64,000 bases of DNA from Aphrocallistes beatrix (lineage: Eukaryota; Porifera; Hexactinellida; Sceptrulophora; Aphrocallistidae), in contig OY725498.1 of the NCBI GenBank assembly GCA_963281255.1, positions 1,054,001 to 1,118,000 on the forward strand, given 5' to 3'. Below, piece after piece: positions 1-63,559 of the stretch. The notes under the pieces are model-generated. The model saw only the letters and a program-made list of their open reading frames with translations, was not told the origin of the DNA and made no database searches. A program made the position numbers and the translations under genes. Within the stretch, counting starts at the first letter, position 1. Each line of letters starts with the position of its first letter.

Positions 1-20
1 TTTACGATATTACTGAATAG

Positions 21-2104
21 GAATGGAGCATGGTACTGGAGACGATGGCCTCATATACCGCCGCTCAGTGCGTGGAGCAAGAGAGGAACGAAGGGGACAA
101 AGAGGGCTGCGGTGGTTTCGGGGCTGTAGGGTATAACCAAGGATTCGCCAAGTACGTGTCAAGGCCCGACTACTCCACCTATGAGGATCTGGTTCGCAGC
201 TGGTACGACCTGGGCGGTTATTACAACTTCGATTACAACCTCTGCTATGCAGATGAGGAGTATACCTGTGCCGCCTACCTACAGGTAATATATGCGTGTG
301 TATTGGTTTATACATATTTCGTATTTCTTATGGTTTAGTTAAGGGTTTTATATGCACTTTTCAATCTTAATTTAGTTACGTTGGTGAAAGCATGTCTTTT
401 CAAATGTTAATTCTGTTAATTTATGCCTAGAACAAGGTTTCATTTGTATATTATTAGCATGACATTATCGATTTAATGCATATAATTGCTGTAGACTCGT
501 CAGTTCTAGTTTAATCAAGTTTCTTTCAAATACTTCAATACGTATTCGATTGGGTATCAATATCTGGTATCAGATCTGGACATTTGACTGATTAACAGTC
601 GATAAGTGGTGCATCACAGAACAAATCAAAGCGTTGCTGCCCATTACGCTTCCTGTACTGAACTGTATGGGATTCTCTCAGATGCATTATCCATTGATTC
701 CTTATGATACTCGATCATGCGTAGCCTGGCTATAGATTTCCTCTAAAGCAGCCTTATCCTTTGCATTTTAAATGCAGCTTTTGCCGATTAAGAAACCCAT
801 ACACAAGTGGAACGCACAATAGCATTTCATTACCACTTCCTAATTTAGTTGTTATCGTGTGTGTTTACTTGTAACTGCATTTAGGCCGTGTTTGCTAACG
901 TGACTGCAGTTGGATGCGCTTCTAACATGTGCTACTTGGACGTGAAGGATGACGGGCAGTACATCGGAACCGTATTGGTCTGCTACTACACTCCAGGATG
1001 GATGTAAGTTGAATTGTTTCAATTTTGTTATTTGACGACGAAAGCCAAAAATTCACAAATTCATTCATTTGTATTTACATCAATTTGCATTAAATTAAAT
1101 GGATTCTGTTTGAAAAGGTTACTTGCATGGTTTTAACACTATTTTAGTCATGCATATTCGTTGTTTTGTGCCTTTTTTGTTTACTAACATGCTCCACTTC
1201 CACCTTTCTAACTAAAAACAAAAGTTTAAAGATTAGACAAAAAACAGCAATGCACAGTTTGTAATATTTATTATTGCAACTTCTCCTTGACAACACAACA
1301 TGATGATACCACACGTGTTATTGCCATAATCACGTTATTCAGTCAGGAAGAAGTATATACTACTGTCTATAAGTCACGAAGTTTTATCAATGCTTGAAGA
1401 TCGTAATCAGTCCAGTTAGAAGCATTTTGCGAAATTTGTACACGTGAACTATCCACCAGATGGCTGAGCTGTTTTAAGTTTTCAATGGAATTTGCATTAA
1501 CATGTTTTGAGTAGCTAAGAAGCCTCTTTATATTTTTGCCTCGCGCCTAGCAAGTAGAACATTTCCAAAGGTTTTCATATTGAGATAGACAGCGATTGCT
1601 AGAAATCTATTGAACCTGACAAAGTACTAAAGTACCAGTCTCTTAATCTGAACGTTAACTCCGATTTTGTCCGACTTCTGATCGGATATGTTTCCTAATC
1701 CCTTCCAAATGAAACTGTAAAGTTTTGAATACTTGTTATAGTATGGCCCTCTCACTCCTAATGAATACTCTGACCTGTCTTGTAGAATGAACCCTGAAGA
1801 AGACGACAACAATAACAACAACGACAATGAGAACGGACTCAGTTCACCAAGGCCCTACACACAGGGAACCAGCTGCCAGAAATGCCTCAGCGATGCCCCT
1901 TACTGCTACAGGGGACTTTGCTGTAAGTCTCGTTACTATTGAATAGGCTTATCATTTGAATCTCTGCGTCTGTTTTATAACAATTATCTCCATTCCTTAG
2001 CTCCTTACTACGACGCCTACGGAGCAGGGTCAATGGTGTCACACAGCAGCCTCCTGATGCTAGCTCTCACAGCCATGATCCTAGGCATCTTCTCCTATTT
2101 GTAG
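21..2104 (+). CDS. CAP-domain (CRISP/GLIPR-type) secreted protein, 5' partial
   Basis: Exons are 21-284, 885-1003, 1786-1922 and 2001-2104 (208 codons with stop). The first visible exon follows an AG at 19-20 and opens with EWSMVLETMASYTAAQC, so upstream exons with the signal peptide lie outside the window. The CAP signature spans the first intron: CAAYLQ then AVFANVTAVGCASNMC, followed by TVLVCYYTPGWM. A Cys-rich tail follows (CQKCLSDAPYCYRGLC), then a hydrophobic end (SLLMLALTAMILGIFSYL) that suggests a GPI signal or membrane anchor. An acidic Asn/Asp-rich linker separates the CAP core from the tail. CAP proteins are extracellular and usually disulphide-rich. The histidine expected in the usual HYTQVVW motif is replaced here (AYLQAVF), so the metal-binding CAP cavity may be lost; that is inference. 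The family assignment is firm but the exact orthologue is unknown. Confidence 0.8.
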
Positions 2105-2481
2105 ACTCAACTTTCTCAGCTTACCCCTCCTGTGGCTATTTTATTTCAGATGTCTATATTTATATTTGTATTTTTATATCGTATCTATTTACTAGTCTCG
2201 GCTGTCAGAGTCGTTTAGTAGTTACACCATATCCTTCTGTAGGCCCTGGATTCCTGGCTTCTTTACTTAGACACAAACAATGAGCTTTCCACATGTGTTC
2301 TATACCCGTTCTTGTCCGTCCCCTTGTTTGATAATTAGTATATTGTATGTTTATATGCGAGATTATTAAAGCTTGAGTCGTGTAATTAGACCAGTGTATT
2401 GTACCGGGTTGTAGACTTGTACTACGCACTGAATGAGTGGCACTTTTGTACGCGTGAATGGGTGGACAGGAATTTAATATT

Positions 2482-2487
2482 AATAAA
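2482..2487 (+). promoter_or_regulatory. AATAAA polyadenylation signal of the CAP gene
   Basis: AATAAA lies about 380 bp after the CAP stop codon, inside the 9-bp target duplication of the adjoining MITE, so a second AATAAA copy now sits at 3183-3188. Whether this signal or an upstream ATTAAA-like site near 2364 is used cannot be told from sequence. Confidence 0.4.
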
Positions 2488-2488
2488 G

Positions 2489-2805
2489 CAGAATACTTGT
2501 ATGGCGCTGAGCGACAATGTCGCTGACTCTAGCGATTGTATCGCTAGACTTACTCTAGTGATAATGCCGCTAGCTTAAAAACACCTGAAATACGTGGTTT
2601 TAAGCCCTATTTCCTCAACTAAAAACCTCGACAGCCAACGTCTCTGCAAGTAAATGCCCCACCGACAACCTGAGAGCCATATCTCTAACCCAAAATACTG
2701 CTAAATCGGTAAAAAAGTGAAATGTGTAGCAATCTCCACTGAAAACGATGCGTTATTATCTCTAGACTCAGCGACATTGTCACTCAGCGCCATATAAGTA
2801 TTCTG
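2489..2805. mobile_element. MITE with 9-bp target duplication (Mutator-like)
   Basis: Terminal inverted repeats of about 44 bp begin CAGAATACTTGTATGGCGCT at the left; the right end read in reverse is CAGAATACTTATATGGCGCT, and the repeats stay near-identical through GACAATGTCGCTGA. The 317-bp element has no coding capacity. The left flank is TTAATAAAG (2480-2488), and the same nine bases occur at 3181-3189. They are separated from the right end only because a second element (2810-3177) has inserted there. A 9-bp duplication is the hallmark of Mutator-like elements; the superfamily call rests on that. Confidence 0.8.
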
Positions 2806-2809
2806 TTAA

Positions 2810-3177
2810 CAGGGCTGGGGTTGGTTAACCGATTTTAGGGCTCGGTTATTTTGGTTTCCTCTAGGGCGGTTAACCGGTTAACCAATGTCAATACTAATTG
2901 GTTGAAATATGGATTTTTAGACTAATATTTAACCTGCTAGTGATTAATTTGATAATTTTCAGTTGTCTCGAATTATACTATATGGTTAAAAATAGAAATA
3001 ATAATGTATTATTAATTTTTTAGAAGTAATATTCATGAATCTCTGTCGAAAAACAATGAAATTAGTGTAAATATTTAGAAAATAAAGCAGATCGGCTAGC
3101 CGATCCAAGATTTTCTTAACCGTTAACCGAGATCGACGGCGGTTAGCCGGTTAACCGGTTAACCGAATCCAGCCTTG
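2810..3177. mobile_element. hAT-type MITE inserted at the end of the preceding MITE
   Basis: The element begins CAGGGCTGGGGTTGGTTAACC and ends with the near-inverse (GGTTAACCGAATCCAGCCTTG). It is rich in GGTTAACCGG palindromes near both ends. CTGTTAA is duplicated exactly on both sides (2803-2809 and 3178-3184), and an eighth base differs (T versus G), matching an aged 8-bp hAT duplication. It has no coding capacity. It cut into the right target duplication of the 2489-2805 element, so it is the younger of the two. Confidence 0.75.
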
Positions 3178-3195
3178 CTGTTAATAAAGGCTATA

Positions 3196-3334
3196 CAGTC
3201 GAAGTCGTTTTTCTTTGTGCAATTGATTTCATATCCTATGAACAACACCCTGACTATTCTGTAATGGAGTTACTACAGTACTAATAAAACAATTTTACAG
3301 AGACATAGCGGCGAAAAAAAACCGACTTCCACTG
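3196..3334. mobile_element. Short Tc1/pogo-type MITE with TA duplication
   Basis: The 139-bp element is bounded by TA dinucleotides, with ends TACAGTCGAAGTCGTTTTTC and, read in reverse, TACAGTGGAAGTCGGTTTTT. CAGT..GAA ends with a TA target site are typical of pogo-like members of the Tc1/mariner superfamily. A relative with very similar ends lies at 58623-58807. Confidence 0.65.
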
Positions 3335-3336
3335 TA

Positions 3337-3901
3337 AATTTTTGTGAATTGGGAGGAATCTAACATGATCAGGTTTCCAATAGCCCAGGCAACCTTTTGA
3401 TAGCATGACATGACTGAATCCGAGGATAGCAGTTATAACAATAGCATTCTGTGGAATGCTGTTTCAGTCTTGTAATATTTTATTGATTCCTTTCTCCTAC
3501 GTTTTTACATCAGCAATTCGTGCAATCTTGTTTCTATTATGCATCACGAGACATTCTGTCTAGGCCACTTCCTGAAGGGATTTATTTCTTCATGATTATG
3601 CAATGCTCGACCAGATTTGATATAGATTGTTCAGTTGATGTGTTATATGTCATTCATGCTGGCTTCTTATTCATGGAAATTGTTGAATATTGTTTTACGT
3701 AGCCATGCTTCAACTAGAAATTATGATTTACATCAAAACGTAAAAAATTCGCCCTGTTTTAATTGAATATTTACTTTTTAAACCGCGCGTGGACTCGAAT
3801 TCTTATCAATACCTTAGTTGAATGTGATATTGAGAATGTTATTAAGATCTGCAGTAGCCTTCTTGGATCAAATACCTTCACAAAGTCTCATAAAGCTTGC
3901 A
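3337..3901. other. Intergenic stretch, no gene seen
   Basis: This stretch lies between the transposon cluster and the first Nudix gene. Short open frames (for example 3520-3702) show no recognisable protein. The promoter and 5' UTR of the Nudix gene presumably lie in the last few hundred bases. Confidence 0.4.
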
Positions 3902-4378
3902 ATGGCATCTGCTACTCCCAAAACCTGGAATCCAAAGAGCCTGGCAGTGAAAATGGACAAGTCGCTTGGGATCATTCCTTGCCGCTACAAAAACGACGCG
4001 TGGGAAGTGTTCTTGATACAACAGCGAGCTGGTCACTGGTGCTTCTGTAAGGGACATCCAGAGCCTAGCGACAAGAGCGAGTTCGAAACGGCTTGTCGCG
4101 AACTGGAAGAGGAGACCAATATGAAAGTTAAACGGGTCTTGTCTGACGAAACAGTAGCGGAGAAGTATGGGTTTGAGAAGAAGGGGCTTTGGAAGGATAA
4201 AACCGTGGTTTACTGGCTAGCTGAGGTACAGGACGATAGTGTGGTTAAGCTACAGGACATCGAAGTGAGGGATAGCAAATGGATGATAGCTGAAGAGGTA
4301 GAGAAGCAGATGACCTATTTTGAAGCTAAAGAACTCAGTAAGCAAGTAGCAGCTAGATTAGCCACGATCAAAGCTTGA
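3902..4378 (+). CDS. NUDT2-like Nudix hydrolase, tandem copy 1
   Basis: An intronless 158-residue protein. The Nudix box runs from GHPEPSDKSEFETACRELEE through ETN and keeps the catalytic R-E-x-x-E-E core. The segment between the first Gly and the Arg is one residue longer than the canonical G-x5-E-x7-REU spacing. KTVVYWLAEVQD closely matches the conserved KTVIYWLAEV strand of bis(5'-nucleosyl)-tetraphosphatase (NUDT2). That family cleaves diadenosine tetraphosphate asymmetrically to ATP and AMP, and some members also act on capped RNA. The frame stays open upstream to an ATG at 3818, but the ATG at 3902 places the first Nudix strand at the usual distance. The next gene, 128 bp downstream, is a clear paralogue, so this is a local duplication. 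Confidence 0.85.
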   Translation: MASATPKTWNPKSLAVKMDKSLGIIPCRYKNDAWEVFLIQQRAGHWCFCKGHPEPSDKSEFETACRELEEETNMKVKRVLSDETVAEKYGFEKKGLWKDKTVVYWLAEVQDDSVVKLQDIEVRDSKWMIAEEVEKQMTYFEAKELSKQVAARLATIKA

Positions 4379-4506
4379 ATAATTGGACCTGTATATTTAA
4401 CTGGTTTTATTCACAACTATTTAGACCCGATATTATTTGCCCTTTCATCAAAATCAAATAGAGTAAATTATTAATATTATAATTTCAAAAATCAGTTACT
4501 AGTATT

Positions 4507-4977
4507 ATGGCAGCGGTAGCCGATAGGAATCCCAAAGGTCTGCGTGAAAGAAAAGTGAATTCGTATGGGATTATTCCAGTTCGTTGTCAGGATGGCGTGT
4601 GGGAGGCGTTCATTATCCAGCAGAGAGCTGGGCACTGGTGTTTCAGCAAGGGACACCCCGACCCAAACGAAACTCAACTCCAAACTGCTTATAGAGAACT
4701 GAAGGAGGAGACGAATTTGAAAGTGAAAAAAATCCTCTTCGACGAATCCATTCTTGAGAACTACGAGCGCGCCAAGGCTGGTTATTGGGAAGTTAAGACA
4801 GTCACACTTTGGATCGCAGAGATTTTGGATGCGAGCGTGGTTAAGTTGCAAAAGGAAGAAGTGTCTGATTGCAAGTGGGTACCAGTCAGTGAATCTGATG
4901 TCCATGTCACGTACGAGCATTGCAAAGAAGCAGCGAGAACGTTACAAGCGAAAATGAGCTCCTTAAAGAGTGTTTAG
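4507..4977 (+). CDS. NUDT2-like Nudix hydrolase, tandem copy 2
   Basis: An intronless 156-residue protein. The Nudix box GHPDPNETQLQTAYRELKEE has exact G-x5-E-x7-REL spacing, unlike copy 1. It shares with copy 1 the run GIIP.R..D..WE.F.IQQRAGHWCF.KGHP, and KTVTLWIAEI occupies the NUDT2 KTVIYWLAEV position. The predicted role is hydrolysis of Ap4A-type or related nucleoside polyphosphates in the cytosol. The intergenic gap of 128 bp and the same orientation fit tandem duplication; the amount of divergence shows it is not recent. Copy 2 is the better candidate for the ancestral activity because its motif is canonical. Confidence 0.87.
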   Translation: MAAVADRNPKGLRERKVNSYGIIPVRCQDGVWEAFIIQQRAGHWCFSKGHPDPNETQLQTAYRELKEETNLKVKKILFDESILENYERAKAGYWEVKTVTLWIAEILDASVVKLQKEEVSDCKWVPVSESDVHVTYEHCKEAARTLQAKMSSLKSV

Positions 4978-5223
4978 ACATTCTTCTACTAATTTCCTCT
5001 TTATTTTAGCCAGAAGTTGTAATCTTTATTTTAGTCAGAATTCCTGTAATTGTTAGTGTATAATATCCTATATTATATGATTGAAAATATTCTCCTGTAT
5101 ACCACAGGCGTATAGTGTAATACCCTGCTAGCGTCTAAATAGCTAGCAGTATCGTAGCTGTACACGTACATTACGTACATTGTATGATTAATCCTATTAG
5201 CTGAATTGCTTTGGTCTGATTCG

Positions 5224-5721
5224 ATGACAACAGAAGAAGGAGAAATTAGTTTCCTACTTTTCATAACAAAAATGTATGAATCCACAGAGAATCATGAAAA
5301 AATGAGAGAAGCGATAACGAAGTTGACTAAGGTTAAATGTAATAAATCTCTCCTTTTGAGTGTAGAAGAAAGGAATTTGCTCTCGGTTGCTTACAATAAT
5401 TGCGCCGGAGAAAGGAGAAGCTCTTGGCGTGTGCTGTGTTGTATTGAAGAGAAACTTCTGGAATTTTCTGATGCGAAATCTGCGAATAAATTAAAAATTT
5501 TATCGGACTTTAAAGAATGTGTAAGAAGCGAATTAATTCAAATTTGTACTGAAATGATAGATCTCCTTGATTCATATCTCTTACCAGTCAGCGCAAGGAT
5601 AGTAAGGGAAGAACTTTTCTACACAAGAATGAAAGCTGACTACTGCAGATATCTGGGAGAGGTGGAGACAGGCGATAAGAAGGAGATTGCAACTGCAAAA
5701 AGGAAAAGAGAAATGAACTGA
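5224..5721 (+). CDS. Truncated 14-3-3 protein (N-terminal half only)
   Basis: A single exon of 165 residues from the ATG at 5224 (an in-frame ATG at 5206 is less likely). The 14-3-3 signature is plain: ERNLLSVAYNNCAGERRSSWRVL, then LLDSYLLP, then YCRYLGEVETGDKK. Family members are about 245 residues long and bind phosphoserine peptides as dimers. This frame stops just after the fifth helix with a basic tail (ATAKRKREMN), so helices 6-9 are missing. There is no GT donor at the break, so an overlooked intron is unlikely. Arg residues equivalent to R56 and R127 and the following Tyr are kept, but the phosphate-contacting Lys equivalent to K49 is Asn. It could be a retrocopy undergoing decay or a dimerising but non-binding regulator; the sequence alone does not decide. 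Confidence 0.8.
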   Translation: MTTEEGEISFLLFITKMYESTENHEKMREAITKLTKVKCNKSLLLSVEERNLLSVAYNNCAGERRSSWRVLCCIEEKLLEFSDAKSANKLKILSDFKECVRSELIQICTEMIDLLDSYLLPVSARIVREELFYTRMKADYCRYLGEVETGDKKEIATAKRKREMN

Positions 5722-6116
5722 AAACGATGAAATTAATTCTTCTGAACAATTGATTAGATCGCTTGTTTCTTAAATTTGTACATTTATTATATTTAAACGA
5801 AAAAGTGATTAATTAATTCTTATTTTTAGTAATTTCATATGTCTAAGCGTGTGCATCCAAACGCGCCATAGTTCACAGAAACACAAACACAACAACAGCT
5901 AAAGTTGGGTGGCAAGGTTTTTTACAAACTTTGAATATTTAACATTTTCTGAAACAAATCTTTACGTATTCATTTATGCAATACTGGTAAAATGTATTCG
6001 TATTCTGGAATTTGGAAAATTGTTGTTGGCTTAATCCTGAACTGTAAGATTATTTTGAAACAATTCCGCCATTTGATTGATTTTGAATTGCTCTTCTTAG
6101 CATTAAGTTAGTCCTG

Positions 6117-8789
6117 ATGTCTTGTGAAACTCGCTCCAGTAGCAGATCTGCTCCTGAAATCACGATCCCATCCAAACCAGGTTCCCTCCATCTCCCTCCT
6201 ATCAGTCCAACCCACCCCCCTAGAACTTCCACACTCCCCCCGTTCCCAGGGGAACACGCATTCACACCTTCCCCTACCTCCACCTACGACATCATCGTCC
6301 TACCACAGACCCCCAATAGCGTCACAGAGTCTGCATCCCTGGTTCGTGATGAAGTTAGGCTGGAGCAGCTATGGCAGTGGACAGGACGGTACAGAGACTG
6401 GCAGATACGACTCATGCTGGCCGTTATCGCTCAGTTCTGTAAGCTTCACATCATAGACTGCTTCAACACGATACTCCTGCCATTCCTCTCTTCAGCTAAG
6501 TACAATACTTTCTTGAATCCGACTGACACCGGAGTAGAGACCTCTCTTTCACGCTCTCTCTCACTCACACCTCACGCAGCAAGGAGAAGTTACGCGCACG
6601 TGAATATCCCACACCTCCCCCTCTCCGTACACTCCTCCGATTTCTTCCCCAAGCAAGAGATCCCCAGATCCTACATGCAGAGAAGAAACTTCAAACCGGT
6701 AAAGCGACCTAAAACGGGAATCCTGGTGGGGAAATTCCGTTCCGAGCTAAAGGCTATCAGCAGATGGATGAGTGAGGACTGGAATAGGCCTCTCACGCTT
6801 GTCAGGTTTCTGTGCGAGCTCGTGAAGCGATGCTCCGTGTCACAGCTCCACTTCTTCGCCGGATGTCTCCAGAAGAGGCTGAATGCGAGAGTGGATATCA
6901 GCTGTTTGTCAGATTCTCTACTGATGCACGTGTTCTCCTTCCTCGATCCTCGCACCCTCTCTCAGGTCTTGCTCGTGAATCGCCGCTGGAGGGGCCTGGC
7001 TCTGAACCCGATCATGTGGAGGAACAAGGTCAGTTGCAACGAATTCTATTATCCATAGTCCACTCACTTATGCGGACTGCATTCCAGCATTCCAGCACAT
7101 GTTTATCTGAGTTTTGTTTGATAGGTGAGAATGTTCGGAGAGAGAGAGGGAGTGCCAGACCTGGACCTATGCTTAGAACGGGGGGAATCTGGTCCTGTTG
7201 AGTGGAGGGAAGCCTACATCCAACTCTACAACGTGTTCAACAGTCTCCGTCTCGGTATCGCACTGCCAGAAGCTGAGAAACGTAAACCACAACAGGAGTT
7301 AGCACCTGGAGACATCAACGCCTCACAGTTCCACACAAAGCTGCTTTCTCGTGCTAGTCTAGACAGTATGAATGAGAAGCAGGCGCAGAAAGGTGAGAAA
7401 GAGGCGCCAAATGATGTTGTTCCGTTTCCATCCAGGGTTGATTGTATCAGCGAGAAAAATGAGAGGAAACAGGAAAGCGAGAAAAAAAGAAAGGTGAGAG
7501 TAGCAGTAAGTTCCAAAACTTCTCGTCTTCCTGCTATTGCGAAGAATGAATCGCCCAAACACTCAAAGCACGTTAAGAAGGATAAACTCCCTAAACCGCC
7601 TGCCAAATCCCCTCCAGCCAAGCAGCGGCAACAGCCGAGGATCTACGGACGAGAGGTTATTTGGAGAGTTTTCGATTTCATTCATATCTCTCCAACTTTC
7701 TACGTAACAGATCCCCCTGGGACCAGTTCCAAGTTCTACACCTATCTCGCTCTAGCTGGGTGCATTCCATCTAGCTACACATGTGACCAGGAAGTGAAAC
7801 TGCCACCTCCTCTCTTCCCGGTCCGCTCCGTGCGGCTTTTCACACAAGCTCCGCCTACGCCTATATTCAGTGTGGCCTGTGACTCGAGGCGCCTGTTAGT
7901 AGGCGGCACCGACCTCTGCGTCCGCCTGTACGACTGCAGGAGTGGGAGGGAATTCGGCTGTCTGGACGGACACAAAGGCGCGGTGAACTGCATAGACACG
8001 CTAGGCCCCCTCGTAGTGACTGGCTCGTGGGACTGCACTGTGATGGTGTGGGACGCTGTGCACTTTGAGGCTATGCACACCATTCACGCACACTCACACA
8101 GTGTGACGCGATTAGTGATTGATAAGAACTTCCTTGCGAGTGGATCTGATGGCGGAGAGGTGTCTGTGTGGAGTGTAGAGTCCTGGGAGTTGGTTTGCAA
8201 ACTCGAGCTCCACGAAAAGAGAATCACCGGTATATGCTTTTCGAAGCAAGAGCTCTACACCTCGTCTCTAGATGGGAAAGTCGGTGTGTGGGATATTTCA
8301 AGTTGGGAGCTGGTGACTGCGATTAATCACACCTCTCCCATCACGTGTATGTCAGTAAGGCTGGGACTCTGTGTGTCTGGCTGCGCTTCAGGCTACCTCA
8401 GATTCTGGAATTTATTCTCCTGTAAAGAAGAAATGTGTGAGTTGAACACTTCCAGTCAGCTGAGTCAGCACTTGAAGAATCAGGATCAACTCTCTCTCGA
8501 CTTCACATCTCCCTCTACCATACACTCAGTCTGCATCTTAGAGACACACGTATTCGCGACTAACTCTACCGCTGTTTGCCAGTGGAGTCTGGTAACCTGT
8601 TCACTCGTGAGGGTGTTGTTAGCACATGATGCTCCTATCACCTGTTTGGTGGGGGACAAGCACAAGCTGGTGTCTGTAGGAGGAGACGGACGTGTTGTTG
8701 TATGGCACACGCGGAACAAACCACATGCTCTCTCCAACTATCCCAATTCGATTATTGTTTTTGGAGACTTGAAACGCATCAATCTTTGA
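6117..8789 (+). CDS. F-box and WD40-repeat protein
   Basis: Two exons, 6117-7028 and 7125-8789 (phase 0), give 858 residues. An F-box lies near residues 259-305 (ISCLSDSLLMHVFSFLDP, VNRRWRGLALNPIMWRNK) and is cut by the intron at its end. A Lys-rich low-complexity linker covers roughly residues 390-480. WD40 repeats run from about residue 545 to near the C-terminus (for example LLVGGTDLCVRLYD, VVTGSWDCTVMVWD, FLASGSDGGEVSVW). F-box/WD proteins are substrate receptors of SCF ubiquitin ligases: the F-box binds SKP1 and the propeller binds substrate. The long N-terminal region with a helical segment (QLWQWTGRYRDWQIRLML) and the central F-box recall FBXW10-type proteins rather than beta-TrCP or FBXW7, but I cannot confirm that. 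A pyrimidine tract and AG just before the ATG hint at a 5' UTR intron. Confidence 0.85.
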
Positions 8790-8946
8790 GACTTATTTTA
8801 GAAATTTGTATATTTGTATGTTACTCAGATAGGATTCATGTTTTAGTATTTTATGATTAACTTATCCTCTTCTCTTAAACTTGAAATTGAACATGCGAGT
8901 ATGTGTTATTGTTTATTATAACATCTTAAGTTCTAAGTATAGCATA

Positions 8947-11900
8947 ATGGCGGAATGTTCCAGTATGATGGTGGATAGCACTCCTCAAACACGCCAACTC
9001 AAAGACATCATCGATTCTCTCACGGACCTAGGGTTAGTTCTTATCCATGGTCCTGGAGTTAATTATTTAATATTATTTCTGTTAATCGATTTAGTTATGA
9101 TGGTCCCTTGCTACAAGAGAGGAATCTAGAAGCGTGTTTGAACGGGGGACTCGAGAGCACAGAATTCATTCAGTTTGTCACTTGGTTAGGTAACGATATT
9201 GCCGAGCTCCTCAAACTCGAAGATTCCATTAGCACAGGTCTCGGTGAGTTGATCCAAGCATTTGCTCCAACAAATTACAGACGGACTTTCAGTCCTAAAT
9301 TACAATTTGTGTATTTTAATTGGTAATTTCCCTGCTTTAATCTACTCTGCATAGTATACTTTCTGCGAATCGAGTTTTAAACTTCATACCTGCGACCACA
9401 GTATAAGTTTTCCAATCATATATGGTTTAGTCACTCTGTTTAATGCTCTGACATTCCAGAATACAGATAATATAATGTAATATGCTCACGGCATCACTAA
9501 GCACTTATTTGATCCAGCCAGATAGTGCTGAGGACAACATATGGACATAAACACATGTTTTTGATGTTACATAAGCACTTCACTTTATAACTGAATGTTT
9601 AATTAGTGGTGGAGTACTTAAATATTTCTACATCTTCATAGTTATGCAATGCTATTCGTGTTTGAATTGGTGATAATTATTAGGCAATTATTTTGTCCTC
9701 TTTCGTTTCTGTTCATATTCATGCAATTCAAGTCCGTTTACGTTTTGCTTGTGGCCAGTTTTAGTGTCTTTGAGTATAGACACAGAAACCAGAACTTCAC
9801 TTCTGCGTTTGGAAATCAAAAGTATTTAGTTATATTCCGCTTGAGCCATGTGAATAATTTATTATGCATTAGAAATAACATGATGACTTCTGGTGTTTGT
9901 AGACATACTTATTACGGGCAATAGTTTTAATTATCTATCTTAAATTTTGTAAAATAATCGTGAACTTATAATTACTTATCTCAGATGACTAACAGCAATG
10001 CATTCCCTCAAATGACTAAATCTACGTCTTGTGTGCATGTTCTACGTAAGCGTAATAGAATCTGTAATTTGTTGACCCTGAAGCGTATTCCGCTAACTTA
10101 ATCTCTTCTCAAGATTTGGTATAAGCACAAGGCAAATCAAGAACTGTTCTGTTAAAATGATTACACTTCTAGCGAAACTTCAAACATTTTGTTATTAATT
10201 TAAACTTAAACAACGGAACTGAGTTAGCTTACCTCAAAACTGAGTAATCTGGGATAAATTATTATATTGAACACGAAAATCATTCTACAAATTTTTTTTG
10301 TCCTTTACAAATTTGCGAGTTTAACCAAATTATTGTAGATTATTCATGATAGCTCTTAAGACTTCCTGTCGGATTGGCGTATTTTAATTTATCAAAATGA
10401 TTTTCATTTGTGATCATTATTTTCTAATAATAGAATCTGATGTTCTATAATAGACAGGTGATTACACATTAAAATCAATTGCGTCTTTTTAAATTCGCTT
10501 TGCGAGCAATTAACGCGAGCAAATAAACCACCTGATGGAATTGAACGGTATGGTGGAAATAGTTCGACTTTCCAAAAAAGGAAATAGTTCACATAAAAAC
10601 CACCATTAATCCTAATGATAAAAAGTCGAACCATTTCCGCATTACCGAATTGAACATAGCATCACAGTCGATTCAGTTGTAACAATAGCAAGGTTGTTCA
10701 GAGCATAGGCGTAACTAGGGATATTTTAGGCAGGTTCGCGCGCCCAGAATTGTTCAACCTAAATGCAGAATATCCCCACCCAGCCGTCAGAACCTAGTTA
10801 CGAAGGTTGTCTCCCACAGTGCTTAGAATTACATAGACATACTAATAGAATTCAATAAATAATTGTAGGAGCTGCAAATTCTTTCCCCTCTTTCTGTCTA
10901 TCAGTAACTCTTCAAGTCCAAATGCTGTGTCACCACCCATATACACATATAAACGTGTGTTGGTCAACAGAACGATAACGTTGTTCCGGAACACTAAACA
11001 TATTTTAGTGTTCCGGAACAGCGTTATCGTATTATTTTGTTATATAATTATTATTTTGTTATATAAATAAGCCCGAAAATCCTAGATAAACCGTTGAAGG
11101 CTAGTCTCTGAAAGGTTTACTCTGAAAAGATGCATTGTAAAGAAAACAAACAAGTTATTTATCATAGACCTCCGAAATACCACATTCGGAATCTACACCC
11201 TCGGATACCCAAGGTAAACCGTTGAAAGCTAGTTTCTGGCATATTTTTGAATAAATTCTTCAAAAGTATAAAATGCGTTTAATACCACAGAGTATGTTGA
11301 TTCAGACCAAATTTGTTAAGAATCGAACTATTAGCTTTCGCAGGAATACGGTCGGACAGACGTACAACCCCGCCCATGCCATTACGTCACTAACATGCCG
11401 ATTTGAGTGATTATTGAGTAGAAACGATTTTACTTCGTTGGACAGGATGTGCGTATTTAGACTAATTGCAGGTCAGCGTCTAGCTGGTTTATCTCATAAT
11501 CTAACGCGGAAATTGTGAATTCTGTGCTGTATTGGAATAATTATTAATATCAGTTTCAATTGTAAAATTATTCTCGCATTTTCTTTTCGAGAGAATTCTG
11601 TTTAATTCTAGCTTAATCATTGAAATTTGAGGTCTATTTTAAGAATATACATCTAATGATTTGCATACTCTTTTTATCCAATCTTTATTTTGACAAATAA
11701 CCTTTAGTTATATTAATTAATGTTTCCAGGGACTACGGATGCTGACGTAATAAAGGTTGAGTTAAAAGGACTTCTCACGAATTTGCGTAAGTTCAGCAGG
11801 ATATTCTAGATTTGTATAATTTCCTCTTGATAAGTTTAGATAATACTGAAACCTTACGTTTCGCTCGCATGATTATTAACAGTATAACTAACCGATTTAA

Positions 11901-14900
11901 CTTGTAATAATAGATTGCCCATACCGTTTTCTTACTAAAGACTTGGATATTCTACTCGAAGCAGAAAATCGTTATGTTCTAATCGGTAAGAGTAGCCATT
12001 TGTTGTGCATTAACATTGCGCTCTTCTAATCAAGGATAACCACGTTCTTACGTCCCATATTATTGCTAATTTTATTTGTTTAATAAGATCATATTTATGT
12101 ATACTAAGTGCTTTTAGAGGAAATTGATTCTCTGTCATTATACGTAGCATTTTCTATTTCTGTCCCTTCAGTATTACACGAAGTAATTAACCTACTTTTT
12201 CTAAATAGAATATTTGACATCTGAGCTCCAAGCTACCCGACTAATCGCTCTAGACCAAGCTAATGAAAAAGTTCAAAAGGTTGTTGTCGATTTATTCAAG
12301 TGATTTGTAGGATATTTTAAATTTATTTTTCATAGGCAGAAAACCCAGCTAATGTTTTGGCTCGAGACGCGACCATTTCTATATTGAAGCATCTACACTG
12401 TAGTGAGCCACCGGCTCATGTTACCTTTGAGAATATTTCAAACAAAATATTGGAGAAGGTAGGTAGGCCATTTTAATGTATGATCTAATCTAACCTTCCA
12501 CTTTACATTAAGATTATATTAGCGTTTACGTATATTAGCCATTAATTGAATTTTCACCCCAGAGCTTGATACGCAGCGTTTGCCCAAATTTGTTCTTCAC
12601 CGAAATGCATCCTAGTATAGCAAGCGCAGGAATTAATTAAATCTTTTTGATGAGAATAGTTACCTGAAAGGTATAATTATTCTGTTTTATCACTAGGATC
12701 TCCGATAATCCTAACTCGTTACCCACACACTCAACCAATTTTACAATGTTATTTTCAATGCAAACAAATCAATGATTGAAAATGGATTTCCTTTCTCGAA
12801 ACACAACACCACAATTATAAGAGGAGATTTGAAATTGAATTTGCGTTCTTGCTCACAAAATTTATTCGGAATGATTTGTCTGCAACACATGTTCCCTCAT
12901 CCGATCTGTGAGTTGCTATTCGCTATTCACAGCCATATGCACAGTGGGCTAATGAGGAGGGAGTGTGATACATCCATTTCATACTCTAGGTATTACTGCA
13001 TACTACTCTGGGGTGAAATCAGAATCGGGTTCATTACCATATCAGCATAACCTTGCATTGTTGTATCTAGAGTATTAGCTCCACCTATCTTATCAAAACA
13101 CCCAATCACTTTTAAAAGTTTATAGGTTTCACTTGCGACTGCATAGCATAATTATATGGGCTGCACATTCTGTAGTAAGTAGTATAGAATTGGAAAAACC
13201 AATATTGTCTCTACATTAACTACTGAGGGAGGAGAAGAAAAGATTAAGCGGAGTTTCCAATTAAATGATTAAATTTAGTGTTAGCTTCTATGTATGATAA
13301 TTCATTCCGTTCCTGGAGACTTGTCCCAATTAACCGGTGTCCCGATTAAGCAGAGTCATCTACTTATCCCATGACATAGTGGTATATTACGTAAATCATA
13401 ATATTTATTCATAACGTCAACATGGTTTGTTTTTATTGGCATTCTCATCTTTAAAAGGAAACCACAATAATTTTCGTGTTACTACACGGAATATCTTAAT
13501 TAATGAATTATTCATCAGCTAATACATCATTTCAGAGAGGAGATATTGTAACTAAGACTGTAATGTCAGTAAACCCAGGAAGACGGCGGAAACGAGGTAA
13601 GACTCCACTTTTCCACGGAGCGAAGCGAGTTGCATCTCATAGTGTGAATGAGCACACTTCTAAATGCTCAGATAAAGACGATTCTGAATGGGTGCAGACA
13701 AATGATGTCTCTGAAGTAACTAAAATCAGTTCGAAACGTAGTTCGAATAGGATAAGAGCATCGTTAGCATCCAAAGAATCCCCGGATACTGATCCATGCA
13801 TCGGCCAAATAAATCAGGTTCTAACCCCCAGTACCAGTACACCCATCAAAGTCGGTGTACTGGAGCCTAGCATGGAGAGCTTTGGAGAAATCGAACTGCA
13901 GTTCATAGAAGCCGAAATGGAGCAAGGAATCTGTCCAGAAGAGCGGAGCTTTATGCTCAACACTTCCCGCATTAGACAAACTAAACCTAACGATTCTAAA
14001 CCGATAAATAAATCCTACGAAAGTTCGTTTAGCCTCATCTATGAAAATGTAGATAACCTGCTTGGCGAAATTAGTTCTGTGATCGTTCGCGAGGATCAGA
14101 GTTTGAGTTGGCTTCCAGAGAAATTCTGGAAACTGTTGCGGGAGGAGAGAGGGATAAGCGAGCTCTACGACTGGCAGAAGGACTGTCTCCGCCTCGCTGG
14201 AGCCCACAGGGCTAAGAACTTGATCTACTCACTGCCAACGAGCGGGGGCAAAACCCTGGTCGCCGAGATAATAATCCTAGAAGCACTGCTCGCAAGAGAT
14301 TCTGACGCACTGCTCGTCTTGCCGTACGTCTCCTTAGTTCAGGAGAAAATGCGGGGTTTGTCCACGATGGCTTCAGAGCTCGGATTCTGTCTCGAGGAGT
14401 ACGCGGGGAGTAAGGGCGCCCTCCCGCCTAGAAAGAGGCGCAGACACTGCTTGTACGTGTGCACTATAGAGAAAGCCAACTCGCTGACCAGCTCACTGCA
14501 GGACGAGGGGAGACTGAGTGAGATCGGACTCGTCGTGGTGGATGAGCTGCACATGATTGGGGAGGAAGGAGGGAGAGGTGCGTGCTTGGAGATTTGTCTT
14601 GCGAAGATTATGCATTGTGAGTCGCGTACAAGAATCGTAGGGATGAGCGCGACATTAGCTAATCTGGAGATAATTGCTACGTTCCTAAATGCGGAACTCT
14701 ACACCTCCGATTTTAGACCTGTCACCCTCAAAGAGTACTTCAAGCTAGGACCGAATATCTTCACAATCAACATGAAGAAAGATACCGCCATGCTACAGCT
14801 GGCCAGGGCGCTACCAGACAGCAGGTCTAGGTGCAAGAAGGGAGGCAATCCAGACCCTGATAACATCACAGCACTGGTCACAGAAGTGATACCAGAGAAA

Positions 14901-17900
14901 TCGTGTCTCATCTTCTGTGCCAGCAAAGTTAATTGCCAGAACGTATTGACCATGATAGCTACTCAGCTTCCTAAGGACTTCAGAAGTATTAAACGTAAAG
15001 AGAAGATAAAACTACTCGAAATTCTATCAGACGATGCGAGTGGAGTCTGTCCCGTTCTTAGGAAAACAATTCCCTTCGGTTTAGCTTACCACCACTCAGG
15101 GCTTACAATTGAAGAGCGGAAGGTGATTGAGGAGGGTTTTCTCTCGGGCACGTTATGTCTGCTCACGTGTACCAGCACGCTAGCAGCAGGCGTGAACCTC
15201 CCAGCCAGTAGAGTAATCATACGCAGTCCCTACACCGGAAATGTTTTCTTGACTCGGACACGCTACTTGCAGATGGTCGGGAGGGCAGGAAGGGCAGGGT
15301 TCGGAGAAGAAGGAGAGAGCATTGTGATCGGAGACTTCAGGAATAAACGTGAAATAATGCACCTCATGTCTGCACCACTAGAATCATGTGCTAGTACTTT
15401 GTTGAGCGATGGCGGAGTGCACCTGAGACAGATGTTGCTAGCTGCTATCGGGTCGGGAATAGCCAACACTCCGGAAGAGGTGGAAAGGCTCATGAGTAAA
15501 ACATTTCTAGCCAGTTGCATTGAGCAGGACGTGATCAGAAGTCAAGCGATCGAAGCAGTGAAAGAACTGCATAGCAAACAGCTTATATGGGCCGCAGATG
15601 AAGGAGAAGTTAAATACTATGTTACCTGCCTAGGCAAAGCTGTTTACAAGTCTAGCATAGAACTGGACAGGGCAGCAGAAATCAAGAGAGAGCTGGAAGA
15701 TACCCAGAGCTGCTTGGTACTCACAACTGACCTCCAGCTCATCTACCTGGTCATTGCACCCGATCTCCTCTTCAGCATAAAACCGGACTGGAAGTATGCG
15801 TTTAACTGTGTTACGGGTGAGGGAGAGGAGCTGCTCAGGGTAGCTATGCACCTAAAAGTGAACCCAGGATTCCTTTCAAAACTTATGACAGGAAGTGGAT
15901 ACAATAGCAGTGAACAGGAAGTTACGTACAGACGATTCTACCTCTCACTCTTGCTCCACCAACTCGTGGTGAGAGGCGGAGGGGAAGAGGGGGTGTGGAG
16001 GGTAGCAGAAGAGTTCAACTGTAGCAGAGGCTTCGTACAGAGTTTGTTAGCATCGACAGCAGCCCACTGTTCCTGTCTCATCAGGTTTTCCGAACATATC
16101 GAATCTTTGTGGCCGTTAAACCATCTGCTTCCTGTTTTAATGCAGCGAGTCGCCTACGCCAGTAAACCAGAGCTCATCCCTCTGATGGAACTGAGTGGGG
16201 TGGGACAAGGGAGAGCTAGACAGCTGTTGGCTGCAGGCTACAAGAGTGTGAAAGAGTTGGCAAAAGTAGATCCCTTCGAATTAGAACAGAACATTCATCA
16301 CCTGAATAAGAAACAAGCTGCACAGATAGTAGCATCTGCTAAGCTGTCTCTTCAGGAGAAGGCAGAAGCCCTCAGAGAAGAGGCAGAAGAATTACTTACA
16401 CTATGACACACTGGCATAGACTGGGAATTAGAATGGCCATATACTTATGGTAATCTAAATGAACACGATCAAAACTTAGCAGGTGTTCTGATGAAATTAG
16501 TGGAGTTACTCCTACTAATTCAAGGTACAATAATGTCGTTTTATTTGACACTGATACTGCATGTTACATGGGGATGGCTACCCTATCAAGATTCATGAGA
16601 TTACTCTTTCTGGAGGTAATTAGGGCACGAACTATCCACAAAATTTCTGAACTTACGTATCTATATCCACATGTTTGTACCCGATGAAATTGAATTCATA
16701 AATCTACCCTCAAAACCGTGCAACAAACCTCCATTATGCAAAGTGAGCTTAATTGATTCGCCTAGCTCAGTGATAATAAGGTGGAATTTACCTCAAATGA
16801 TACTATTTAGACTAATCTCTGACCTTATTTTATTGTATAATAAGCACGATCAACCAATTGAATTGGAACATACATTGCGAATGTGTTTAATGTATAATTT
16901 TCCGGAATATAACTTGGTGTTACGTTGCTGTATTCTATAGGTTAAGCAATTATCTGTAAACCCAGGCTATTTCGGGACATCTTTTATCTCAAGACAGTTG
17001 CACAGAGAGCAATGGGTAAGAAATTACTTGAGCCAACATCATCTTCAGTAAGATAGTTATGCAATCCAGTAGATTGACGCACATCTGTATTGAAAATGTC
17101 TCCCTGGCGTTTTACTTCAGTTTCATTTTAATACTCATTCTTAAAACTTGGTAACTTATTTAGGCATATGTTGAAAGATTGAATACTTCGTTGGAAGATG
17201 AATTCAGAACAAGAAGACAATTGCTGTTAACACGACTGGAGGTCACATTGCAAGCATTCACTTGGAAAAAGGTTTCAAATACTCCGAAGCATTTAAATAA
17301 TACTCTTTCATTTCAAATTGAAATTGCCATATTTGCCACAATATTCAAAATATGTTTAATACGTACTTAGTACTAGTGAAAGAAACCACAACATCATTAC
17401 GTATTGAAATATATTAGGATAAAGCTGATGGAGTTGAAAAGGCTATTCAGAAGGAGATGCGGTCTGGCCTCTCGCCTGGATGTTCCATCCCACTGCACCA
17501 CCTCCTGGCAGCCAGAGAGGGTAGATTAAGAATTAAAATTGTGGACTTTGTGGCTGTTTTATTTTAATGTTACATAATTAATTATTTAAAACTCCATTAT
17601 TAAATGAGAATTCTTTTTGCTTTTACAGATCTCGCTTACCAATCGAAGACGTCTAATCAATCTGTTTTGAAGAATACTCACTCAACAATACACAAGTTTA
17701 AGATGGGAAATGTCAGTCGAACTAATCGGATTACTTACCACAGCTAAATATTCTATATTAATTAGCAGTTAAATAATTACTTTTATTTTTTCAATATTTA
17801 CATTTCATATATGTTAGGTTCCTGACAGAGGTGGGCGGGCCTGGGAAACAAGACCGCCCCCAGAAATGCCTGCGTTTCAACCTCGTGTTGAACATCCCAA

Positions 17901-18846
17901 ACTCGATCGAGGTAAGTCATATAACGAGTGCAGAAGCTCATGACACAATTTACTCAGTAATAATGGCGTATCATGAGAAGTTCTTGGTTTTCCTACGTAG
18001 AATTAGTAATTATATTTTATTGAGATTTGCTCTTCTAGTTTACCATAGCATCGAGTGGGCATATATGTTTTGGGAGTGTTTTACTTGTAAAGCTTTGTCG
18101 CAACATATTACATGTTATTCGTCATGAACCATTTATATGTAGTTACAGCCATGAAATGGAATAAATTCAATAAAAGCCTAGCTCCGTACTCTTATGCTAT
18201 ATTGCGTTTCTACAGGAGGTAAGCAAGGTCAATTCCGACCGGGCGAGTTTCAAAAGACCCAGAATTGGGAGAGATCGTGTAATGAGCCTAGGGGTCACCA
18301 GTACCAACAGAGGTCGTATGATAGTGAGCCTAGAGGGCGACAGTATCAGGAGGGAATGATATATGTCTCCCATGCTCCTCAGCAACATCACCAGTATTAT
18401 GGAAATCCCCCTCTACACCAATCCATGAGTTATGACCAGCCACGCTACACAACACGAGAACCTCAATATGAGAGAACTGTGAGCTATGAGCATCAAGGCC
18501 AGGGTATGCTTTTATTCGTAAGCAAGCAAATGTTTTCAAATAGTAGGGATTTATACTCGACAGCTATAATTGTTTGTAATCAGGATTTTTCAAATAGCTA
18601 ACTGATATTGCACAACATATGAACAATTTTACAGCAAAACCTTTGATTCGAAGTGTCATTTTTATATTTCCCGAAAACTCTTCCCTTGTAATGCAGTGTA
18701 AATATTAAATTATGTCTGTATACCCTTACATTAGTATTGTCATTGTATTTTTAGGCGATCACCACCGGAGACCACGTGGCTATCAGAGAAGAGGAAGGGG
18801 CCCGAATCCGGGACAAGGAAATATATTATTCGACAACACTTATTAA
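8947..18846 (+). CDS. FAM98: FAM98 family protein (tRNA ligase complex subunit type)
   Basis: Thirteen exons: 8947-9032, 9095-9243, 11730-11786, 11914-11985, 12209-12279, 12336-12458, 16941-17015, 17164-17271, 17418-17520, 17629-17711, 17818-17911, 18216-18503, 18755-18846. The spliced product is 466 residues with every phase matching. Family landmarks are LTDLGYDGPLLQERNL, HCPYRFLTKDL, YLTSELQATRL, CSEPPAHVTF, RRQLLLTRLEVTLQAF, LHHLLAARED and the near-invariant VPDRGGRAWETRPPPEMP. The C-terminal Gly/Arg/Tyr-rich tail (RRPRGYQRRGRGPNPGQG) is typical. FAM98 proteins join the RTCB-DDX1 tRNA-splicing ligase complex. Intron 6 (12459-16940, 4.5 kb) contains the whole HELQ gene on the same strand. 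Confidence 0.9.
10704..10810. repeat. Possible small inverted-repeat element in FAM98 intron 2
   Basis: GGCGTAACTAGG near the left and CCTAGTTACGAAGG near the right form an imperfect inverted pair about 100 bp apart. This resembles the ends of many small transposons, but no target duplication is clear. Confidence 0.3.
10972..11030. repeat. Near-perfect long hairpin in FAM98 intron 2
   Basis: An inverted repeat of about 27 bp per arm (ACGATAACGTTGTTCCGGAA in the left arm) is separated by a loop of about 5 bases. The arms differ at one or two positions. Each arm contains the palindrome TTCCGGAA. Downstream, an imperfect direct repeat (TAAACCGTTGAA followed by GCTAGT) occurs near 11085 and 11213. 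Confidence 0.7.
13503..16406 (+). CDS. HELQ: HELQ (POLQ-like superfamily 2 DNA helicase), intronless, nested in FAM98
   Basis: A single uninterrupted frame of 967 residues. Motifs in order: Walker A LPTSGGKT (near 243), VVVDELHMIGEEGGRG with the DELH box (near 346), MSATLAN (near 381), YHHSGLTIEERKVIEEGF, and QMVGRAGRAGFGEEGES, motif VI (near 590). The C-terminal helix-hairpin-helix ELSGVGQGRARQLLAAGYKS lies near 896. The order and spacing match HELQ/Hel308 rather than POLQ, and no polymerase domain follows. HELQ is a 3'-5' helicase in replication-fork repair and works with RAD51 paralogues. The poorly conserved N-terminal 200 residues are Ser/Lys/Arg-rich, as in the family. The gene lies entirely inside FAM98 intron 6 on the same strand. 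All motifs are intact, so it reads as functional rather than a decayed retrocopy. Confidence 0.93.
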   Translation: MNYSSANTSFQRGDIVTKTVMSVNPGRRRKRGKTPLFHGAKRVASHSVNEHTSKCSDKDDSEWVQTNDVSEVTKISSKRSSNRIRASLASKESPDTDPCIGQINQVLTPSTSTPIKVGVLEPSMESFGEIELQFIEAEMEQGICPEERSFMLNTSRIRQTKPNDSKPINKSYESSFSLIYENVDNLLGEISSVIVREDQSLSWLPEKFWKLLREERGISELYDWQKDCLRLAGAHRAKNLIYSLPTSGGKTLVAEIIILEALLARDSDALLVLPYVSLVQEKMRGLSTMASELGFCLEEYAGSKGALPPRKRRRHCLYVCTIEKANSLTSSLQDEGRLSEIGLVVVDELHMIGEEGGRGACLEICLAKIMHCESRTRIVGMSATLANLEIIATFLNAELYTSDFRPVTLKEYFKLGPNIFTINMKKDTAMLQLARALPDSRSRCKKGGNPDPDNITALVTEVIPEKSCLIFCASKVNCQNVLTMIATQLPKDFRSIKRKEKIKLLEILSDDASGVCPVLRKTIPFGLAYHHSGLTIEERKVIEEGFLSGTLCLLTCTSTLAAGVNLPASRVIIRSPYTGNVFLTRTRYLQMVGRAGRAGFGEEGESIVIGDFRNKREIMHLMSAPLESCASTLLSDGGVHLRQMLLAAIGSGIANTPEEVERLMSKTFLASCIEQDVIRSQAIEAVKELHSKQLIWAADEGEVKYYVTCLGKAVYKSSIELDRAAEIKRELEDTQSCLVLTTDLQLIYLVIAPDLLFSIKPDWKYAFNCVTGEGEELLRVAMHLKVNPGFLSKLMTGSGYNSSEQEVTYRRFYLSLLLHQLVVRGGGEEGVWRVAEEFNCSRGFVQSLLASTAAHCSCLIRFSEHIESLWPLNHLLPVLMQRVAYASKPELIPLMELSGVGQGRARQLLAAGYKSVKELAKVDPFELEQNIHHLNKKQAAQIVASAKLSLQEKAEALREEAEELLTL

Positions 18847-31948: not shown

Positions 31949-38577
<6,629 letters not shown>

Positions 38578-39860: not shown

Positions 39861-41215
39861 CTAGGGCATTCAAAAAGTCTTGCGGGTCATACCATAAAAT
39901 AATAAATAAATGTCATAGAATATGTTTCAATGTATTATTTATTCGAAATACCCCCCTCCTAATTCTACACAGCGTTTCAATCTTTCCACCTACTTTATGA
40001 ATGCATTTCTGTACTCTTCTTCGGGGATGGATTTGAAGCAGTGGTACAGGGCCGACCCGAGGGTTTGTTTCGGCTCAAGTTCCCTGCCTGAAGGTAGATT
40101 TTGAGCTTGGGGAATAGCCAAAAATCACAGGGAGCTAGGTCTGGTGAGTAGGGTGGGTGGGGAAGTAAATTTAACCCCTCTGATTCCAAGAAATTTTTAG
40201 TGAGCTTGGCTGTATGGGAGCTAGCATTATCTATCAATAATTTTATTCCCCTCGTTTTAGCCTTGGCTCGGAGCTCTTCCGCGTTTTTGATTAGGTTTGG
40301 AAGTACTTTCTCTGTAAAAACGTTGCGTTTACTGTTTTACCACTTTCAGAAGGTATTTGCAAGACTATTCCACTACTATTGAAGAAAATCGGGTACATGA
40401 CCTTCGGTTTTCTGAAGTCGGGCCTAGGAATTTGGGTCGGTCTTTCGTCCCCTCTCACCCATGATCGCATTTTATACTTGCTGTAAGGGGTTGAATAATA
40501 GACCCAAGTCTCATCCCCGGTTATAACTTCAGCTAGGCGTCTAGGATCACAACCGTCATAGGTTTCCAGGAGTTTCTTGGCAGTCTTTACACGTGCGAGC
40601 TTTTGTTGATCGCCGAGGTTATGTGGGACCCACTTACCGCAAATGGATCGGAAACCAAGCTGAGTAGTCAGAATGGAATGAATGGCCCCCGAAGAAATCT
40701 CCATACTCTGCTCTAACTGCTCGATTGTTATACACTTATCTTCCCTGACTTTGCTCTCGATTAGAGCAACATTCTCTGGGGTGCTGACGGACACCGGTCT
40801 CCCAGATCGAGGTAGATCTGACACGTCTGTATTTCCAGACTGAAATCGTGCAGCCCATTGCTCAACCGTTGATCTGGAAGGGCAGTCCATGCAAAATACC
40901 TCCTGCAACTCATTGTAGATGAGTACCGGCTGGATGCGGAGTTTTGTGCGAAACTCAATGTAAGCTCTCCATTTCAGATTAAAATTGTCATCCTTGGAAG
41001 CCATAATTTTACCAGTATGTTGAAATGATGTGTGAATAAATTGATCAGAAATTTGTAATTTTCATTCAATCAAGCTAAGATTTTCAGTAAATCAAGCTAA
41101 GATTTTCAGTAAATCAAGCTAAGATATAAGGTTGTGTTATAGATGAAAACTGATTAGTTTACTATTATAGTCTGCGAAATATACCATGACCCGCAAGACT
41201 TATTGAACGCCCTAG
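39861..41215 (-). mobile_element. Mariner-family DNA transposon, decayed
   Basis: A 1355-bp element flanked by TA on both sides (39859-39860 and 41216-41217). Terminal inverted repeats of about 30 bp begin CTAGGGCATTCAAAAAGTCT at the left and, in reverse, CTAGGGCGTTCAATAAGTCT at the right, sharing TTGCGGGTCAT. It holds a broken transposase on the minus strand. Just upstream of the transposase start are three copies of a 22-bp unit (41068-41130) containing CAAGCTAAGA. Confidence 0.93.
39995..41004 (-). pseudogene. Mariner transposase, frameshifted
   Basis: The first frame (41004-40291) carries an N-terminal helix-turn-helix half and the first catalytic Asp region (VITGDETWVYYSTPYSKYK). The reading then shifts frame: the second part (40237-39995) has IDNASSHTAKLTKNFLES and HPPYSPDLAPCDFWLFPKLK, which hold the second and third catalytic Asp residues with the DD34D layout of mariner. 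At least one frameshift between about 40290 and 40240 and a shifted, truncated C-terminus make the copy non-autonomous. Confidence 0.9.
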
Positions 41216-62911: not shown

Positions 62912-63114
62912 TCGAAAAATCACAAAATTTGTCAATTTTTTATGCGTAATGATGACGTTATAACAGAGTGATGAGTCATCATTTTCGGTGATAGTTGCAT
63001 CACATGTGAAGAGTATTAATATACACATTCTATTAAAATTTCAGCCTATCGCCTAAAATGGCTGAATTATAATCTAAAAACTGAAATTTCTAATTATGAA
63101 AAAGGTGACAATGT
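62912..63114 (+). repeat. Left arm of a long inverted repeat
   Basis: About 200 bp matching the reverse complement of 63787-64000 along most of its length (for example GTAATGATGACG, AACAGAGTGATGAGTCATCA, CTGAAATTTCTAATTATG). Divergence is perhaps 15-20 percent with small indels. Confidence 0.85.
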
Positions 63115-63368
63115 AATTACACGTGCAATTACACATGTAATTACACATGTAATTACACGTGTAATTACACATGTAATTACACATGTAATTACACATGTAA
63201 TTACACATGTAATTACACATGTAATTACACATGTAATTACACGTGTAATTACACATGTAATTACACGTGTAATTACACATGTAATTACACATGTAATTAC
63301 ACATGTAATTACACATGTAATTACACGTGTAATTACACATGTAATTACATATGTAATTACACGTTTAA
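63109..63368. repeat. Minisatellite of 12-bp ACACATGTAATT units
   Basis: About 21 consecutive 12-bp units with almost no length variation. The main variants are ACACATGTAATT and ACACGTGTAATT; the second contains the E-box CACGTG. Edge units are degenerate (CACGTGCAATT at the left, ACGTTTAATT at the right). The array begins directly at the end of the left inverted-repeat arm. Confidence 0.95.
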
Positions 63369-63559
63369 TTTTCGTTTTGTCATCTCTCTTTTGACGGGAC
63401 GAAAAAGGAACGGAAAAATTGCGAAATAAAGACGAAAACTAACTTTCATAGGTTGATCTAAGGTTTTTGGCGGCGTAGATTTAGAATATTCTATTTTCGA
63501 AACTGTGCGATAAATTGTTTATTTATTTTGTTTGCAATATATAGTACATTAATTGAACA

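Follow-up and report, generated by a model that had tools for sequence, protein, structure and literature searches.

A predicted intron-free HELQ gene nested in parallel within a FAM98 intron of the glass sponge Aphrocallistes beatrix

Architecture of the FAM98 host gene

The window, meaning the whole stretch of DNA analyzed here, comprises 64,000 nucleotides of contig OY725498.1 of Aphrocallistes beatrix. On its plus strand lies a FAM98 gene (8947–18846) that consists of 13 exons separated by GT–AG introns and encodes a product of 466 residues. It starts with an ATG at 8947, its stop ends at 18846, and all exon joints are in phase. Residues 1 to 186 are encoded by exons 1 to 6 (8947–9032, 9095–9243, 11730–11786, 11914–11985, 12209–12279, and 12336–12458), and residues 187 to 466 with the stop by exons 7 to 13 (16941–17015, 17164–17271, 17418–17520, 17629–17711, 17818–17911, 18216–18503, and 18755–18846), all on the plus strand. 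The exon boundaries were picked manually at GT and AG; hence, their independent support comes from phase and homology. Exons 6 and 7 are separated by intron 6 (12459–16940, plus strand), which spans 4,482 bases between the donor GTAGGTAG and the acceptor TATTCTATAG. The phase is 0 at the end of exon 6 and again at the start of exon 7.

Both groups of exons match the profile PF10239. The joined protein reaches 251.5 bits (cut-off 30.5) with residues 40 to 332 aligned to profile positions 2 to 300 of 302. Exons 1 to 6 alone reach 88.0 bits over profile positions 2 to 149, and exons 7 to 13 alone 148.6 bits over positions 157 to 300. Since these profile segments are complementary and do not overlap, the two halves read as parts of one protein. 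A solved FAM98B chain, 9i8v_D (listed without its organism), aligns to residues 19 to 315 of the joined protein with an E value of 3.2e-36, and this alignment crosses the exon 6/7 joint at residue 186 unbroken. Reading through from exon 6 into intron 6 adds only five codons, VGRPF, before a stop, and the first methionine of the 3′ half does not occur before exon 9. In the genome (100.5 Mb, 28 contigs), the FAM98 locus takes all 10 matches obtained with the first 342 residues as well as all three matches of the PF10239 profile search. Judged by phase and homology, the exons on either side of HELQ belong to one FAM98 gene. The sequence-only reading had placed the end of exon 6 at 12458 and the start of exon 7 at 16941; these coordinates are correct, with a phase 0 joint and homology that continues across it.

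Upstream, a WD40 frame on the same strand ends at 8789, so only 157 bases (8790–8946) separate it from the FAM98 start, an operon-like spacing. A scan of 8790–8946 for 12 poly(A)-type hexamers found none of them.

The HELQ guest gene

HELQ is encoded on the plus strand by one uninterrupted frame (13503–16406). The stop-to-stop frame from 13500 to 16406 comprises 968 codons and is open throughout; it yields 967 codons from the ATG at 13503 or 947 from the ATG at 13563, and the latter may be the real start. The coding frame lies wholly within FAM98 intron 6 on the same strand (13503–16406 inside 12459–16940). Five Pfam domains score above cut-off: DEAD, Helicase_C, HTH_61, POLQ_helical, and HHH_5. 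With an intact frame and these five domains, the earlier claim of a complete 967-residue helicase on the same strand within a FAM98 intron is borne out, and chance would not be a serious alternative for the nesting of HELQ in FAM98. The GC content by codon position (0.53/0.41/0.52) is similar to that of the PIWI, EMC2, and WD40 frames.

HELQ, a Hel308-type Ski2 helicase, contains a helicase core and winged-helix, helical, and helix-hairpin-helix domains and has no polymerase domain. The window gene fits this domain set, and DNA_pol_A belongs to a separate POLQ gene. In a profile search, POLQ_helical is found at two places in the genome, the HELQ locus and contig C11. The match on C11 is located in a single frame of 1,864 codons that is 36% identical to HELQ and also carries DNA_pol_A. 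Holding both helicase and DNA_pol_A domains, this frame is POLQ, which leaves HELQ as the name for the window gene. Among solved structures, its protein comes closest to helicase chains of DNA polymerase theta, aligned over residues 215 to 958. No chain named HELQ occurs among the 60 solved relatives listed, so the assignment to HELQ is a prediction from domains and exclusion. No second HELQ, intron-bearing or otherwise, was found in the genome (11 matches, 20 candidates scored); the next match and nearest relative is POLQ. Three DNA_pol_A places are clustered within approximately 85 kb on contig C1 (10702464–10786440).

Flanks of HELQ and neighboring elements

The 5′ flank of HELQ contains a dispersed repeat of approximately 115 bases (13242–13356, plus strand), recognized by its matches in the genome. 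Fifty-two other matches are listed (40 of 733 candidates scored), some of them partial, with identities of 74 to 90%. Inverted partners are present in two of the three copies fetched (L045 and L047, not L046), which suggests that the repeat is the terminal inverted repeat of a DNA transposon. Its ends may resemble those of pogo/Tigger elements.

The 3′ flank extends over 534 bases up to FAM98 exon 7 (16407–16940, plus strand), and its single match in the genome is itself. It contains neither AATAAA nor ATTAAA, so the 3′ end of HELQ is not obvious, and its longest A run is four bases. One of these two hexamers lies within 500 bases of the gene end in 12 of 18 window genes and is missing in the other six, HELQ included, and FAM98 introns hold approximately 0.9 poly(A) hexamers per 500 bases. 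Hence, the hexamer test does not discriminate, and poly(A) signals were dropped as evidence of separate 3′ ends. The longest word common to the 5′ and 3′ flanks is 12 bases long and is equaled by 10 of 200 random window pairs, so a target-site duplication is borderline at best.

Two further elements are located in FAM98 intron 2. The first (10547–10646) is approximately 100 bases long and has inverted ends of 26 bases that are 85% complementary. Its listed copies of at least 84 bases are 92 to 100% identical (40 of 1,063 candidates scored), and it is probably a young miniature inverted-repeat transposon. The second (10972–11030) is a 27-base hairpin, 96% complementary, with a 5-base loop; among 40 of 1,063 candidates scored, its only match is itself.

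Gene structure and nesting in the window and the genome

Of the 18 window genes recognized by Pfam matches that exceed the cut-off, a non-exhaustive list in which small extra exons are possible, 13 are single frames: two NUDIX genes, HELQ, BEN, TMEM161, O-FucT, GIDE/MUL1, EMC2, cyclophilin, NHL, DUF4078, FYVE-ankyrin, and CMS1. The five genes with more than one exon or frame are FAM98, ISWI, F-box/WD40 (a pair of frames counted as one gene), an RRM gene, and a VWD/EGF gene. An additional OCIA-like single frame scores below cut-off (17.3 versus 25). Three stretches of 10 kb were sampled elsewhere in the genome. One holds a single-frame PIWI gene (883 codons) and an NDUFS7-like gene, also single-frame; the other two hold frames that look mobile-element–like by eye.

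A second nested gene is found in an intron of the ISWI-type gene (34745–37127, plus strand). The frames on either side of this intron join in phase after HRIGQTKQ, as judged by eye, and the adjoining exons carry SNF2, HAND, and SLIDE domains. Herein, an NHL-repeat protein is encoded antisense to its host as a single frame (34949–36652, minus strand; PF01436 NHL, 1e-19). Gene-in-gene arrangements and intron-free genes are common in compact animal genomes such as this one.

Elsewhere in the window, a frame on the minus strand (40291–41061) is similar to mariner transposase by eye, and positions 63111 to 63370 form an array of approximately 22 copies of the 12-base unit ATGTAATTACAC. Rfam and tRNA scans of the 64-kb window returned no matches, and neither did an Rfam scan of five loci.

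Proposed working of the nest and alternative explanations

At the level of sequence, FAM98 is a gene in two parts, the HELQ frame is intact, and each of the two is detected at a single locus. The best explanation, to which we assign a probability of roughly 0.78, is that of an ordinary nested gene in a compact, intron-poor genome. HELQ would be a self-contained, intron-free unit in FAM98 intron 6 on the strand of its host. Its own promoter would be located in the 1,044 bases downstream of FAM98 exon 6, and its transcript would end in the 534 bases that precede exon 7. When exons 6 and 7 are joined in FAM98 transcripts, HELQ would then be discarded along with the intron. Its lack of introns would reflect the trend of the genome to single-exon genes, reached either by intron loss or by an old retroposition followed by loss of the parent.

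Retroposition is compatible with this ordinary nested-gene explanation and may be held tentatively, at somewhat less than even odds. HELQ would herein be a retroposed copy in the FAM98 intron, whose intron-bearing parent was replaced and later lost. The single frame of HELQ and the dispersed repeat in its 5′ flank are consistent with such an origin, and the Aphrocallistes paper suggests that retrotransposition may be the chief cause of broken synteny (PMC10282587). The argument that HELQ is intronless and so may have been retroposed holds in its first part, and the second is weak: POLQ and PIWI elsewhere in the genome and 12 or more window genes besides HELQ are single-frame as well, and a general loss of introns accounts for the HELQ frame equally well. 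A search of the genome for an intron-bearing parent copy found none (11 matches, 20 candidates scored). The 3′ flank, which matches only itself, shows no poly(A) tract, and its A runs do not exceed four bases. The 12-base word shared by the flanks, equaled by 10 of 200 random pairs, makes no convincing target-site duplication. Poly(A) tracts and target-site duplications fade with time, so an old event may no longer show them; an origin of HELQ by retroposition is possible but unproven.

A different working of the nest would follow if HELQ had no promoter of its own and a spliced leader, joined in trans at an acceptor shortly before the HELQ start codon, released it from the FAM98 pre-mRNA; host and guest would then be two outputs of one transcript. 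We regard this as unlikely. Trans-spliced leaders are reported for a glass sponge (PMC10282587) and a ctenophore (PMC8527503), and acceptor-like sites occur upstream of both candidate starts of HELQ. The site at 13457 has a score of 7.44, which is attained by 8.7% of random flanks, and the site at 13535 a score of 4.35, attained by 36%; true FAM98 acceptors, each left out in turn, score 1.6 to 9.2. However, the 13457 site has an A at −3, unlike all 12 FAM98 acceptors, and no leader gene was identified in the genome. Moreover, acceptor-like sites at 18 starts are not clearly above random flanks (one-sided p 0.08; 19 starts scanned, with the first and higher-scoring ATG of HELQ excluded), so their excess is not significant. 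The leader end of the ctenophore Hormiphora californensis, searched together with a donor GT, occurs at control level in the present genome (44 versus 54 matches); as Wnt was not found either, a ctenophore as the source of the DNA was rejected.

It is very improbable that a single transcription unit yields both FAM98 and HELQ, be it through a fusion splice from exon 6 to 13535 or through spliced-leader release. From the acceptor-like site that ends at 13535, the HELQ frame is open in phase 0, which matches the phase 0 of exon 6. Splicing of exon 6 to this site, in addition to the splice that leaves HELQ out, would result in a FAM98(1–186)–HELQ fusion protein. By score, the 13535 site is unremarkable, and because a stop directly precedes the HELQ frame, acceptors upstream of 13500 cannot yield an in-frame fusion. 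Least credible of all are two separate FAM98-like genes flanking HELQ, which have as their sole point in favor that no transcript has been seen and which are rejected by a single PF10239 profile divided at residue 186 without overlap, by phases that join at exon 6/7, by a solved FAM98B chain that spans this joint, and by an upstream half that stops five codons into the intron and a 3′ half that lacks a methionine before exon 9.

Comparison with known nested-gene systems

By its sequence, the nested HELQ gene is real but ordinary, another example of a well-described kind. As the class is already known from glass sponges, ctenophores, and mammals, the FAM98/HELQ locus adds a case and not a principle; no paper describing HELQ in a FAM98 intron was found in the literature search. 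It represents a clean case, in which a long, conserved DNA-repair gene lies intact on the same strand inside an intron of another gene, and is useful for testing how compact genomes separate parallel nested transcripts.

In mammals, internal genes are described as typically intronless, and in same-strand pairs, a minority class there, the guest lies in an intron on the strand of its host, as does HELQ (PMC8467205). The sequence-only reading had called same-strand nesting uncommon. This goes too far. Host and guest share a strand in 76 of 296 simple nested pairs in human and in 55 of 248 in mouse, as derived from the opposite-strand counts given in the same paper. Same-strand nesting is a minority but not a rare class and makes up approximately one in four of the simple nests in mammals.

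Nested genes have been described for small genomes of non-bilaterian animals (PMC8527503 and PMC10282587). In the ctenophore Hormiphora californensis, 1,654 host genes are reported to contain 2,357 nested genes. Many of these run parallel to their hosts, and 1,109 nested genes have transposable elements on at least one side (PMC8527503).

Among glass sponges, Oopsacas minuta is reported to be without wnt and dishevelled and to retain frizzled B. The present genome looks much the same, with no match for Wnt or Dishevelled by Pfam profile, zeros that stand without a positive control genome, and with Frizzled present; the Frizzled profile has three matches here versus the single frizzled of Oopsacas minuta. 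By these profiles, a glass-sponge genome is likely. A close parallel in gene architecture is Aphrocallistes vastus, for which PMC10282587 gives 19,578 genes, 2,432 nested genes, and 12,409 single-exon transcripts, the latter being the majority. A small genome, mainly single-exon transcripts, and nested genes are herein found as in Aphrocallistes beatrix, with a genome size of 80 Mb versus 100.5 Mb here.
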